Positions 5,300-24,488 of a stretch of 64,000 bases of DNA are shown here, piece by piece (position 1 is the first letter of the stretch; each line of letters starts with the position of its first letter). Position numbers and translations under genes: made by a program. Below the pieces are notes generated by a model. It was not told the DNA's origin. It made no database searches and saw nothing but the letters and a program-made list of their open reading frames with translations. Origin of the DNA: Microbacterium sp. EYE_78 (GTDB lineage Bacteria; Actinomycetota; Actinomycetes; Actinomycetales; Microbacteriaceae); assembly GCF_023149035.1 (NCBI RefSeq), contig NZ_JAHXMY010000002.1:310001-374000 (forward strand). The letters run 5' to 3'.

Positions 5300-5324
5300 G
5301 CCGCATCCTCCGACACGCCGGTCG

Positions 5325-19839: not shown

Positions 19840-19886
19840 GCACACGCGCCGCCGTCGCGGCATCCCGGACGCGCAGTCCCCGCGGC

Positions 19887-19926
19887 TGTCAAGCCCTGCG
19901 AGCCCTCGCCGGTGCGGTGCGAGCCT
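19887..19926 (+). promoter_or_regulatory. TGTCAA-N28-GAGCCT promoter element (copy A)
   Basis: TGTCAA at 19887-19892 is followed after exactly 28 bases by GAGCCT at 19921-19926, 24 bases before the PPOX gene. The same layout recurs at 20445 and 21570. See findings. Confidence 0.45.
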
Positions 19927-19950
19927 GACGGTGAGACGAAGGAGGGCCGC

Positions 19951-20433
19951 ATGGCCACCGAGAAGGATCCGCGCGCGACACTCATCGACCTGCTGCCGAA
20001 GTTCCGCTTCGCGATGGTCACGACGACCGACGAGGACGGCGCGCTGACGGCGCGTCCGCTGACGGTGCAGGACAGGGAGTTCGACGGCGATCTGTGGTTC
20101 ATCGTCGCCCGCGACTCATCGTTCGCGGCCCACATCGCGCAGCGCCCGCGCGTCGGGGTCGCACTCAGCACGAACGACGCGTGGGTGTCGCTCGCGGGTC
20201 GGGCTGAGATCGTCGACGATCCCGCCCGGCTGCGCGAGTACTGGTCGCCGGCCGTCGAGGCCTGGTTCCCCGACGGGCCGGAGGACCCGAACATCACGCT
20301 CGCCAAGATCGACGCGGTGTCGGGGGAGTACTGGAGCAGCCCCGGCGGCGTGGTCGCGTCGATCGTGAGTCTCGTGAAGTCGAAGGTGACGGGCGAGCCC
20401 TACGAGGGCCGCAACGAGACGGTCGACCTCTGA
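19951..20433 (+). CDS. pyridoxamine 5'-phosphate oxidase-like general stress protein
   Basis: A 160-residue split-barrel flavin-binding-type protein of the PPOX superfamily, general-stress-protein 26 branch. FAMVTTTDEDGALTARPLT near residues 20-38 is the first barrel hairpin, LWFIVARDSS the second, and EYWSPAVEAWFPDGPEDP the conserved C-terminal region. Members bind FMN, FAD or F420 and are often stress-induced; the reaction is usually unknown. The ATG at 19951 has a strong GAAGGAGG Shine-Dalgarno. It is the first of three genes preceded by the TGTCAA-N28 element. Confidence 0.88.
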   Translation: MATEKDPRATLIDLLPKFRFAMVTTTDEDGALTARPLTVQDREFDGDLWFIVARDSSFAAHIAQRPRVGVALSTNDAWVSLAGRAEIVDDPARLREYWSPAVEAWFPDGPEDPNITLAKIDAVSGEYWSSPGGVVASIVSLVKSKVTGEPYEGRNETVDL

Positions 20434-20444
20434 TCGGCGCGGAC

Positions 20445-20484
20445 TGTCAAGGCCCTCCGTGTCGGCCGAAGCGATGCGTAGCGT
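20445..20484 (+). promoter_or_regulatory. TGTCAA-N28-TAGCGT promoter element (copy B)
   Basis: TGTCAA at 20445-20450 and TAGCGT at 20479-20484, 28 bases apart, 37 bases before the small ORF at 20522. Confidence 0.5.
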
Positions 20485-20521
20485 CGCGATCACGTGACCG
20501 ACAGCGACCGGAAGGACCGCG

Positions 20522-20677
20522 ATGAGCGACACGAACGGCTCGGACCAGCACAACACCCACGGCGTCCCGGATGAGGGGACCGAGGCCGACACCGCGTCGG
20601 GCGGCTCGCCCGACGAGAATCCGCCGGTGACGACCGATGAGGACGGCACGCCCATCGAGAACCCCTCGGGCGGCTGA
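20522..20677 (+). CDS. 51-residue acidic, disordered small protein
   Basis: A 51-residue ORF (MSDTNGSDQHNTHG...) rich in Asp, Glu, Gly, Thr and Pro, with no hydrophobic core and hence probably unstructured. It begins at an ATG with AAGGA about 9 bases upstream, has its own TGTCAA-N28 promoter, and is followed by a strong hairpin, so it looks like a real monocistronic gene. It resembles the 68-residue protein at 21665 in its MSD start, composition and promoter. No family is recognised. A stress role is inferred only from sharing the promoter type with the PPOX gene. Confidence 0.7.
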   Translation: MSDTNGSDQHNTHGVPDEGTEADTASGGSPDENPPVTTDEDGTPIENPSGG

Positions 20678-20695
20678 CCCCTGATCGACCCCGAC

Positions 20696-20733
20696 CCGCC
20701 GTCGCGCGCAGTTCGCCTGCAGCGCGGCGGCGG
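20696..20733 (+). terminator. hairpin terminator after the 51-residue gene
   Basis: A 12-bp stem (20696-20707 with 20722-20733, one G-T wobble), extended inward by GCAG/CTGC, loop TTCGC. It starts 19 bases after the stop and is followed by TTCT. It could also serve the minus-strand gene ending at 20769. Confidence 0.6.
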
Positions 20734-20768
20734 TTCTCATGTGGGCGGGCGCTCCCGCGTCGGAGATG

Positions 20769-20945
20769 TCAGAACAGCTCGATCACTGTCGGCAAGAAGA
20801 CGATCGCGAGCGCGACCGGGACGACGAGCAGGCCCACGGCGGCGATCGCGATGGCGGCGACGCTGCCGAGGATTGAGAGCACTGCCGCTGACGCGGTGCT
20901 GCGCGCACGTGAGGTCGAGGGAGTCGAGAGGGTCGCTGTGGCCAT
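20769..20945 (-). CDS. 58-residue membrane protein
   Basis: A 58-residue ORF. Twenty Ser/Thr/Ala/Arg-rich residues are followed by a continuous hydrophobic stretch (AVLSILGSVAAIAIAAVGLL, then VVPVALAIVFL) long enough for one or two helices, and it ends TVIELF. There is no Shine-Dalgarno, but TACCGT sits 6 bases before the ATG, which fits leaderless expression. No homologue is recognised. The consistent promoter and membrane-helix pattern make it more than a chance ORF. Confidence 0.65.
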   Translation of the reverse strand: MATATLSTPSTSRARSTASAAVLSILGSVAAIAIAAVGLLVVPVALAIVFLPTVIELF

Positions 20946-20951
20946 GATTCG

Positions 20952-20957
20952 ACGGTA
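20952..20957 (-). promoter_or_regulatory. -10 hexamer TACCGT for the 58-residue gene
   Basis: TACCGT on the minus strand, 6 bases before the ATG at 20945. Confidence 0.45.
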
Positions 20958-21002
20958 TGAATCGGCCCTACCGCTGCGCGTCCGCCCGCGGGCTCGACGT
21001 GG

Positions 21003-21112
21003 TCATCCTTGAGGATGATGTCGCTCGCGAGAGCGGTGGTGGGTCTGCATCCCACCCCCGGTTCCCCTGTCGCGAAGAGCAGCGCCCCACGGCATGTCAC
21101 GACAGGTGAACC
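21003..21112. other. cluster of four hairpins, possible structured RNA
   Basis: Four consecutive inverted repeats with no ORF: 21003-21018 (6 bp, TTGA loop), 21022-21035 (5 bp, GCGA tetraloop), 21038-21056 (6 bp, 7-base loop), and a 13-bp imperfect pair 21060-21072 with 21100-21112. They lie between the divergent 58-residue gene and the guanidinium exporter gene. The rest of 20958-21150 shows nothing recognisable. Confidence 0.35.
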
Positions 21113-21154
21113 GAGACGCGGCACCCTGCCCAGGCGGTGCCCAGGCCGGCTCTA

Positions 21155-21160
21155 TAGACT
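21155..21160 (+). promoter_or_regulatory. -10 hexamer TAGACT for the riboswitch-exporter transcript
   Basis: TAGACT (overlapping TATAGA at 21153-21158) lies 23 bases before the riboswitch. The transcript would start near 21167. Confidence 0.5.
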
Positions 21161-21183
21161 CCCCGCGGGTCCCGATCGGACCT

Positions 21184-21224
21184 CCGGACGACGGATCAGT
21201 ACCCGGTGAGCGACAAGACTGGCC
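21184..21224 (+). promoter_or_regulatory. guanidine-III riboswitch (ykkC-III)
   Basis: This 41-nt element matches the class III guanidine riboswitch known from actinobacteria: a 5' CCGGACGA block, a central TACCCGGT block and a 3' GACAAGAC block, in the right order and spacing. CCGG at 21184-21187 can pair with CCGG at 21203-21206 (pseudoknot), and 21196-21200 with 21218-21222 (stem). The Shine-Dalgarno AGGAGG at 21225-21230 follows directly, so ligand binding most likely controls ribosome access to the exporter gene. Identification is by recall of the family consensus. Confidence 0.85.
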
Positions 21225-21236
21225 AGGAGGTCAGTG

Positions 21237-21557
21237 ATGTTGTCTTGGGTCATCCTCATCCTTGCGGGGATCCTCGAAGCCGTCTGGGCGACGGCGCTCG
21301 GGCGCTCGGAGGGCTTCACGAAACTCTGGCCCACCGTCACCTTCGGCGTCGCACTCGTCGCCAGCATGGGCGGTCTCGCATACGCCCTGCGGGAGATCCC
21401 CACCGGCACCGGGTACGCGGTGTGGGTGGGCGTCGGCGCCTCGCTGACGGTCGCCTGGGCGATGATCACGGGCGCCGAGTCGGTGTCCATCGTGAAGGTG
21501 CTGCTGCTGCTCGGCATCGTCGCCTGCATCGTCGGCCTCAAGATCGTGTCGGACTGA
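21237..21557 (+). CDS. gdx: guanidinium exporter, SMR family (Gdx/SugE)
   Basis: A 106-residue four-helix small multidrug resistance protein of the SugE/Gdx subgroup. The proton/substrate Glu14 lies in GILEAVWATALG, the pattern of guanidinium exporters. It works as a dual-topology dimer exchanging guanidinium for protons. The ATG at 21237 is preferred over the GTG at 21234 because AGGAGG is then 6 bases away rather than 3. The guanidine-III riboswitch immediately upstream supports the substrate. No guanidine carboxylase or hydrolase lies next to it. Confidence 0.92.
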   Translation: MLSWVILILAGILEAVWATALGRSEGFTKLWPTVTFGVALVASMGGLAYALREIPTGTGYAVWVGVGASLTVAWAMITGAESVSIVKVLLLLGIVACIVGLKIVSD

Positions 21558-21569
21558 GCGCGCCCACCC

Positions 21570-21609
21570 TGTCAACCCCGCGCAGAGCACCTGCTGCCAG
21601 GGTTACCGT
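21570..21609 (+). promoter_or_regulatory. TGTCAA-N28-TACCGT promoter element (copy C)
   Basis: TGTCAA at 21570-21575 and TACCGT at 21604-21609, again exactly 28 bases apart, 55 bases before the small ORF at 21665. Confidence 0.5.
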
Positions 21610-21664
21610 CGCGGCATCGGCAGCCTCGCGAGGCGGGGCCGGCCGCCTGCGACAGGAGGAGCGA

Positions 21665-21871
21665 ATGTCCGACGACAGCCAGCTGGACCGCGACGAGAAC
21701 GCGTACGAGGGTGCAGACGTCGAAGTGCCCACCCACGACGACGAAGGGACCCCGAAGCCCGACGGTCTCGGGCAGGACGGGACGATCCCGAGCGACCCCG
21801 AGGGCGTGGCCGCCGGTCACACCGGCACCACGTCGACGTTCGAGCCCGAAGAGGACGAGCAGAGCGACTGA
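21665..21871 (+). CDS. 68-residue acidic, disordered small protein
   Basis: A 68-residue ORF (MSDDSQLDRDENAYEG...) strongly acidic and rich in Asp, Glu, Gly, Pro and Thr, with no hydrophobic segment. CAGGAGG stands 6 bases before the ATG, a TGTCAA-N28 promoter lies upstream, and a strong hairpin follows, so the unit is complete. It parallels the 51-residue gene at 20522. Function unknown; the composition recalls disordered stress-associated proteins, but no named family is assigned. Confidence 0.75.
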   Translation: MSDDSQLDRDENAYEGADVEVPTHDDEGTPKPDGLGQDGTIPSDPEGVAAGHTGTTSTFEPEEDEQSD

Positions 21872-23776: not shown

Positions 23777-23813
23777 CAAGCGCAAGGGGACCCGCTCGTC
23801 GAGATGTCCGACC

Positions 23814-23819
23814 TAGGGT
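23814..23819 (+). promoter_or_regulatory. -10 hexamer TAGGGT for the NAD(P)-binding protein gene
   Basis: TAGGGT, 24 bases before the ATG at 23844, with GAAAGGAG as ribosome-binding site in the leader. Confidence 0.5.
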
Positions 23820-23843: not shown

Positions 23844-24488
23844 ATGGCCCGCATCCTGCTCATCGGTGGACACGGCAAGGTTGCCCTCCTGCTCTCCCCC
23901 CTCCTGGTCGAGGCGGGGCATCACGTGACCTCGGTGTTCCGCAACCCCGCGCACGAGGAGGAGGTCGCCGCGACCGGCGCCACGCCCCTCGTCGCCGACG
24001 TCGAAGGCTTCGACCTCGGCCAGTTCACGAACCTCGTCTCGGGCAACGACGTCGTCGTGTGGTCCGCGGGTGCCGGCGGGGGCGACCCGCAGCGCACCTG
24101 GGCGGTCGACCGCGACGCCGCGATCCGATCGATCGAGGCCGCCGAGGCCGCGGGCGTCCCGCGCTACGTGATGGTGTCGTACTTCGGTGCAGGCGCGGAT
24201 CACGGCGTGGACCCCGAAGACGCCTTCTTCGCTTACGCGGAGGCGAAGGCCGCCGCAGACGAGCGGTTGCGCACGAGTGGTCTGGACTGGACGATCCTCG
24301 CGCCGTCCGCGCTCACGCTGGACGAGCCCACGGGGCGGATCGACGCTGACGCCGAGCAGGGCGAGTCCGTCTCGCGGGCAGACGTCGCGGCGGTCATCGC
24401 GGCGACCGTCGACGATGCGACGACGGTCCGGCGCACCATCTCGTTCAACGCGGGGCAGACACCGATCGCCGAGGCGATCCGCGGCTGA
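23844..24488 (+). CDS. atypical SDR, NAD(P)H-binding protein
   Basis: A 214-residue Rossmann-fold protein of the atypical SDR5 (NmrA/BVR-B-like) group. The dinucleotide motif is shifted to GGHGKVA (residues 8-14), as in YwnB/YhfK-type proteins. YAEAKAAADERL at about residues 131-142 holds the Tyr-xxx-Lys pair, and the SGLDWTILAPSALT segment follows, a constant feature of this group. The reaction is unknown. It has a good Shine-Dalgarno and appears monocistronic. Confidence 0.87.
   Translation: MARILLIGGHGKVALLLSPLLVEAGHHVTSVFRNPAHEEEVAATGATPLVADVEGFDLGQFTNLVSGNDVVVWSAGAGGGDPQRTWAVDRDAAIRSIEAAEAAGVPRYVMVSYFGAGADHGVDPEDAFFAYAEAKAAADERLRTSGLDWTILAPSALTLDEPTGRIDADAEQGESVSRADVAAVIAATVDDATTVRRTISFNAGQTPIAEAIRG

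Follow-up and report, generated by a model that had tools for sequence, protein, structure and literature searches.

An upstream element at fixed distance from the -10 hexamer and a putative class of stress-gene promoters in Microbacterium

Promoter units in a 64-kb window of Microbacterium sp. EYE_78

The window analysed here, a stretch of 64,000 nucleotides from Microbacterium sp. EYE_78 (contig NZ_JAHXMY010000002.1, positions 310,001 to 374,000), carries three promoters on its + strand, designated units A, B and C, in which the word CTGTCAA stands exactly 28 bases before a -10-like hexamer. The element of unit A (19886-19892, followed by GCCCT) precedes an extended -10, TGC-GAGCCT (19918-19926, with GAGCCT at 19921-19926), a predicted transcription start near 19933 and the gene of a PPOX-fold (Pyrid_ox_like) protein of 160 residues (19951-20433, + strand; PF16242, E = 1.1e-46), whose best named relatives belong to four M. 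oleivorans strains (84-88% identity). In unit B the element (20444-20450, followed by GGCCCT) is recognised from the sequence and from orthologous loci, the -10 hexamer is TAGCGT (20479-20484), the start is predicted near 20491, and the gene (20522-20677, + strand) encodes an acidic protein of 51 residues, protein B, whose relatives at E = 0.001 are found in 54 of 198 Microbacterium genomes. Unit C is built likewise, with an element at 21569-21575, followed by CCCC and recognised on the same two grounds, a TACCGT hexamer (21604-21609), a predicted start near 21616 and a gene (21665-21871, + strand) for an acidic protein of 68 residues, protein C, which has relatives in 57 of the 198 genomes at the same E-value. 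The two represent two families of small acidic proteins, neither with a Pfam match at 1e-5. Positions, spacing and gene products are as given in the preliminary description of this DNA, as is the sequence CGTCGCG common to units B and C.

That description saw no other such unit in the window, which holds for CTGTCAA, found three times only, and not for a variant of it. Unit D (AGCGCAAG-N27-TAGGGT, 23779-23819, + strand) combines the element AGCGCAA (23779-23785), followed by GGGGA, with a TAGGGT hexamer (23814-23819) and lies ahead of the gene of an NAD(P)-binding NmrA-like protein of 214 residues (23844-24488, + strand; PF13460, E = 3.8e-42).

Between units B and C there is also a Guanidine-III riboswitch (RF01763, 55.7 bits; 21164-21227, + strand), directly 5' of the gene of an SMR transporter (21234-21557) whose best NCBIfam match is SugE, below the cut-off.

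Spacing, position and shape of the element

Three sites by themselves prove little, and the bare count of CTGTCAA in the window is not remarkable (three copies, all at units A to C, with 1.94 expected by shuffling). Genome-wide there are 45 sites, against 59 for the reversed control word; when 45 sites were placed at random, three fell on one strand within 1.69 kb in 0.4% of trials. It is the distance to the hexamer that stands out, given that TANNNT follows the 45 sites twice at a spacing of 27, eight times at 28, twice at 29 and at most once at each of the remaining spacings from 0 to 59, unit A with its GAGCCT falling outside these counts.

The scans summarised next cover 864,000 bases of the 3.10-Mb genome (the window and 40 stretches placed on a grid), in which all 5-, 6- and 7-mers were counted at 62 spacings before TANNNT. 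CTGTCAA at 28 ranked first among the 7-mers (7 seen against 0.01 expected, p = 7.8e-19), five of these seven sites lying outside the window, and GTCAA at 28 ranked first among the 5-mers. Among the 6-mers TGTCAA at 28 came second, after the PafBC-like TGTCGG at 10; the third 7-mer was TGTCGGA at 9, also PafBC-like, and the fourth was GCGCAAG at 27, an equivalent place (7 against 0.06 expected). When spacings were counted from CAA to the -10 hexamer, CAASSS preceded TANNNT 20 times at N28, 7 times at N27 and 0-5 times at every other spacing, and [GC][GT]CAA[GC] occurred 28 times at N27/N28 over a background of about 1.7 per other spacing, leaving about 25 net. By our own extrapolation the class would comprise about 90 promoters per genome. 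Enrichment upstream of genes, on which the preliminary description had staked its proposal, was thus present, and chance or an artefact of composition, already refuted by the spacing peaks of several scans, is a negligible explanation. A scan admitting GANNNT tails was noisy and was left out of the counts, and a start-codon-anchored scan with a free hexamer was dominated by coding sequence. The 6-mer scan also contained CTCTTG at 20 before TANNNT (6 against 0.04 expected), which may be a -35 TTG preceded by an invariant CTC.

An anchor independent of the motif was provided by the ATG of open frames of at least 60 codons. TANNNT lies 6 or 7 bases before such an ATG in 69 and 50 cases, respectively, compared with 0-12 at the other distances from 0 to 29, so that leaderless-type genes are common in this genome (118 cases per 864 kb). 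Fourteen of these 118 promoters carry CAA[GC] at N27/N28, and at most two do so at any other spacing. Since in a leaderless mRNA the A of the ATG should be +1, the hexamer occupies -12 to -7 and the element roughly -47 to -36; the site is centred near -41.5, where a -35 box would be, which in terms of position is the place of a class II activator site.

To describe the shape of the element we used 85 distinct N28 matches with an ATG within 80 bases, taken from the loci of proteins B and C, of a Dps-like ferritin and of a DJ-1/PfpI protein; 66 of them are orthologue hits, the rest being neighbours or chance matches, and the search pattern itself fixed CAA, the G/C after it and TA...T. Outside these fixed letters there is a preference for (C/T)(G/C)(G/T) before CAA and for successive Cs behind it (68-81% at each), and on the -10 side for C at -14 (79%), C at -9 (78%) and G at -8 (80%), with nothing comparably conserved in the spacer or further upstream in these matches. 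The class signature is approximately (G/T)CAACCCC, 22 bases and CnTAnCGT, that is, an asymmetric element close to (C/T)(G/C)(G/T)CAACCCC, with TGTCAA and GCGCAA as variants, 27-29 and mostly 28 bases before a -10 of the TAnCGT type. From these preferences, TGTCAA, which the preliminary description took as the shared word and which units A to C do share, is a local dialect of the class core (G/T)CAACCCC. G at -8 is found in 82% of class -10s and in 39% of those of other leaderless genes (uncorrected p = 7.6e-5). None of 28 class members has TTG at the place of a -35 box, compared with 5 of 103 non-members, and no inverted or direct repeat was seen in the element.

In certain species, as judged by eye, TANNNT gives way to hexamers such as TTGGAT, TGGAAT, TCTACT or TTCACT, 27-28 bases after the element (B loci L007, L008, L022, L024, L027 and L030; PPOX loci L042 and L048). 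These hexamers often precede GG and are perhaps another type of -10.

Two other ways of looking at the motif were set aside. In a divergent reading, in which TTGACAG on the other strand serves as a -35 box, a TANNNT lies 16-19 bases off on that strand in 4 of the 45 sites, and the upstream flanks inspected in class members are GC-rich; this reading is not favoured. In most genomes of the order CGTCAACCCC was more frequent than its reversed control, an excess for which coding bias could account, and these counts were not used. A likeness of CTGTCAAG to the stoperator of mycobacteriophage L5 does not extend to the GGTGG flank of the latter, absent at units A, B and C.

Conservation of the promoters and the genes behind them

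Recurrence at orthologous loci was examined for five proteins, using for each the 30 best-matching Microbacterium loci and recording CAA[GC] followed by TANNNT at spacings of 0-44. The pattern at N27 to N29 precedes protein B in 18 of 30 loci (15 at N28, 3 at N29; 4 matches at other spacings), these loci being the best 30 from the 54 genomes, among 198, in which protein B is matched, and protein C in 17 of 30 (15 at N28 and one each at N27 and N29; 1 match elsewhere), the best 30 of 57 among 198. One locus of each (L018 for B, L326 for C) had no alignment and was counted as a miss. The Dps-like ferritin (best 30 of 54 among 59) has the pattern in 23 of 30 loci, 18 at N28 and 3 and 2 at the other two spacings, with 3 matches outside this range, and DJ-1/PfpI (best 30 of 42 among 59) has it in 19 of 30, 18 at N28 and 1 at N29, with a single match outside. 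These two families were picked since their members in the host genome had already been found, so that the other genomes constitute the test. As a control, DUF4191 (best 30 of 57 among 59) is itself leaderless: in 29 cases its ATG is preceded by TANNNT at a distance of 6-7 bases. It carries the pattern in none of 30 loci. The counts are not independent events, because the host genome is in every 30-locus set and close relatives are over-represented.

The rigidity of the spacing bears on the possibility that the element is a repressor operator. A site over the -35 region would block polymerase, and stress genes are often repressed during growth; nevertheless, a repressor does not need an exact spacing, yet 66 of the 77 orthologue matches are exactly at N28. 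We regard a repressor as very unlikely.

The arrangement of unit A is less widely kept than that of the other units. TGTCAA occurs within 140 bases upstream of the PPOX gene in 12 of 80 loci (L031-L040, L042 and L048), and eight of these (L031-L038) have TGTCAA-N28-GANNNT, where, as in the window, TGn stands directly before GA(G/C)(C/G)(C/G)T, indicating that the extended -10 of unit A is kept.

As for the taxonomic range, with loci grouped by our reading of their titles, CAASSS occurs 16 times at N28 and 6 times at N27 among 29 Microbacterium loci, and 3 and 4 times, respectively, among 25 loci of other Microbacteriaceae, where the matches include Subtercola, Herbiconiux, two in one member and one in a Corynebacterium-like locus (L047) placed in this group unchecked. 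Among 26 loci from elsewhere there are none at N28 and one at N27, with no excess over other spacings. Five other families, each sampled over 80-140 kb, gave no clear N28 peak, at a sample size of low power, given that even the same-family genome G218 has just two CAASSS at N28; one genome of another family (G237) has three at N29 and two at N30, against 0-2 elsewhere. A promoter model built from 34 sequences found the promoter of unit B as its second best match in the host genome (E = 4.2e-5), a site that had helped to build the model. Searched against 79 genomes, the profile gave three single matches outside the family at E < 0.01, all with CAA-N28-TANNNT, where about 0.7 would be expected from these rough E-values. 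The class probably belongs to Microbacterium and at least some other Microbacteriaceae, a judgement made jointly with that on the activator given below.

Thirty class genes of the host genome were scanned with Pfam at 1e-5, and 19 had a match, the 11 without one including those of proteins B and C. The matches include three short-chain dehydrogenases, an NmrA-like protein, a zinc dehydrogenase (ADH), an aldo/keto reductase and glucose-6-phosphate dehydrogenase. The others are DJ-1/PfpI, a ferritin-like protein (Dps by our own reading), two diacylglycerol kinases, a BCCT transporter, an alpha-amylase with CBM48 (by our own reading a glycogen debranching enzyme), a glycosyltransferase, a metallopeptidase, and the families DUF520 (YajQ), DUF3072, DUF3253/DUF2256 and DUF6098. 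No regulator is among these 19, compared with four regulators or histidine kinases among the 15 with a Pfam match in a control of 20 random leaderless genes lacking the element (p = 0.03). Small acidic products are encoded by 5 of 22 class genes and 1 of 103 others (p = 6e-4), or by 3 of 20 when B and C, which prompted the test, are left out (p = 0.013). The recognisable targets are chiefly proteins of redox, storage and osmotic functions and small acidic proteins, and as a set they resemble a general stress response. The small stress regulon proposed in the preliminary description is borne out as a stress-type set with its own upstream element and, at about 90 promoters per genome, has to be enlarged.

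The same gene list argues against a basal element read by no specific regulator, that is, an UP-like site for the C-terminal domain of the alpha subunit. The proximal UP subsite of E. coli lies at -46 to -38, a position matched by the element, and a looser CAA[GC] list includes, by eye, a gene for a ribosomal protein S8-like product, 123 bases from the hexamer and without [GC][GT] before CAA. Against this, the 30 members scanned include no ribosomal gene and no transcription gene, and the DUF4191 control family has none of the promoters. Such a basal element is in our judgement most unlikely.

The factor reading the element and comparison with known systems

The host genome has 11 matches to Sigma70_r2, ten of them over the cut-off. 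When ten of the 11 sigma proteins were scanned, one was over the cut-off for RpoD and one for SigH_actino, with matches to ECF (extracytoplasmic function) models among the others; of the ten, one is RpoD and nine look ECF-type. The SigB/F/G model TIGR02980 gave three matches and none over its cut-off, the best (130.6 bits against 234.35) being the same protein that is over the cut-off for RpoD, although this cut-off is strict and was passed by just 1 of 14 control genomes.

We consider it probable that the three units belong to a large class of stress-gene promoters read by a dedicated activator together with the primary sigma factor. The predicted activator would bind the element near -41.5 in place of a -35 box and recruit primary-sigma RNA polymerase to promoters without one, and the outcome would be a general-stress or stationary-phase regulon that is switched on without a recognisable SigB/F/G sigma factor. 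The element, its spacing, the position of the class before stress-type genes and the recurrence at orthologues are all sequence evidence, and from it we infer the activator. The -10 follows the TANNNT pattern of other leaderless promoters, though with a preference for TAnCGT, which makes an activator likelier than a sigma factor with odd spacing. The preliminary description had left the choice between activator, repressor and unusual sigma factor open, and of these the activator now leads, the fixed spacing telling against the repressor and the ordinary kind of -10 against the sigma factor. A broader proposal, which we hold with less than even confidence, is that the general stress response of Microbacteriaceae operates without a dedicated sigma factor, one master activator reading (G/T)CAACCCC over the -35 region and adapting the primary sigma factor at about 100, often leaderless, promoters.

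Several points weigh against the activator. Most scans took TANNNT and CAA[GC] as given, and the strict pattern is missing in 7-13 of 30 loci per family; before the PPOX gene CAA[GC]-N27..29-TANNNT occurs in just 2 of 80 loci and TGTCAA in 12. The distinct -10s of the class leave room for another sigma factor. The missing -35 box gives weak support to activator dependence, since non-members also rarely carry TTG. The label 'stress' is taken from family names rather than from expression, and no regulator was seen by eye among the 103 gene starts listed.

The room left by the distinct -10s would be filled by an alternative, ECF-type sigma factor reading the whole promoter. A preference of its own, CnTAnCGTCG, marks the -10 region, the genome holds several ECF-type factors with one SigH_actino over the cut-off, and the excerpt of PMC6106888, on a relative, gives SigH the role of generic stress sigma factor in a member of the Microbacteriaceae with a reduced genome. 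The gap of 28 bases, however, exceeds the usual 17 between -35 and -10 by 11, and T-12, A-11 and T-7, though imposed by the scans, look like those of ordinary promoters of the host genome, making this explanation improbable.

A closer relative of the activator would be a cofactor of the Wbl or WYL type seated on domain 4 of the primary sigma factor, which would itself read the element, by sigma adaptation as with PafBC. This fits the rigid spacing to the -10, the asymmetric single site and the absence of a -35 box, and in the excerpted text of PMC11804915 PafBC and, in a different manner, AfsR act so in actinobacteria. A PafBC-like class, TGTCGG-N10-TANNNT, exists in the same genome (14 against 0.47 expected). 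On the other hand, the PafBC-like motif stands about 18 bases closer to the -10 than the element does. We see a domain-4 cofactor as unlikely, if worth keeping in mind.

Soil and plants commonly harbour Microbacteriaceae, and the papers found give no account of how these bacteria turn on their stress protection. Under the activator reading, the element supplies a list of targets, a promoter grammar and a bait sequence for the regulator, and many orphan small acidic proteins could be tested for function together, as members of one regulon.

Among the matches listed in open-access full text, the promoter class is not described under searches for the TGTCAA or GTCAACCC motif, for Microbacteriaceae stress or for Clavibacter/Leifsonia regulons; it does not appear in the excerpts of PMC4255298 and PMC6106888, and the excerpt of PMC3289904, on a Microbacterium dps-like gene, mentions no promoter.

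In its targets, namely Dps, DJ-1/PfpI, short-chain dehydrogenases, PPOX and small hydrophilic proteins, the class resembles the general stress regulons of SigB and SigF, for which the Bacillus SigB-type target list serves as the comparison. SigB/F/G promoters have a GTTT-type -35 and a GGGTA-type -10, in contrast to the TAnCGT and upstream (G/T)CAACCCC of the class, and no SigB/F/G factor is over the cut-off here.

The nearest resemblance in motif is to RamA, a LuxR-type regulator of Corynebacterium glutamicum, whose motifs A/T/C-GGGG-N and A/T/C-CCCC-N, as given in the excerpt of PMC4847777, resemble the CAACCCC and CAAGGGG variants and fit those members, and do not fit CAAGGCCC or CAAGAGC and CAAGCCG right after CAA. 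That excerpt, which deals with a gene repressed by RamA, states no fixed spacing; compared by motif alone, RamA is a lead only. With class II activator promoters the class shares a site centred near -41.5 and the lack of a -35 box, although its activator is predicted and no repeat of the usual kinds was seen in the site.

PafBC, an example of actinobacterial sigma adaptation, reads a -26 motif according to the excerpted text of PMC11804915. At PafBC promoters a TGTC motif is found about 10 bases before the -10, whereas at units A, B and C TGTCAA lies 28 bases before it. The second class of the host genome, TGTCGG(A)-N9/10-TANNNT, forms a separate peak and looks like the PafBC/RecA-NDp motif; one promoter of this class is present in the window at 5315 on the - strand, ahead of a leaderless-type ATG. 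Although the element described here is at -47 to -36 and its targets are not those of DNA repair, the class is like the PafBC/RecA-NDp system of the mycobacterial DNA-damage response in that a short asymmetric motif, placed at constant distance from the -10, would replace the -35 contact of a polymerase carrying the primary sigma factor.

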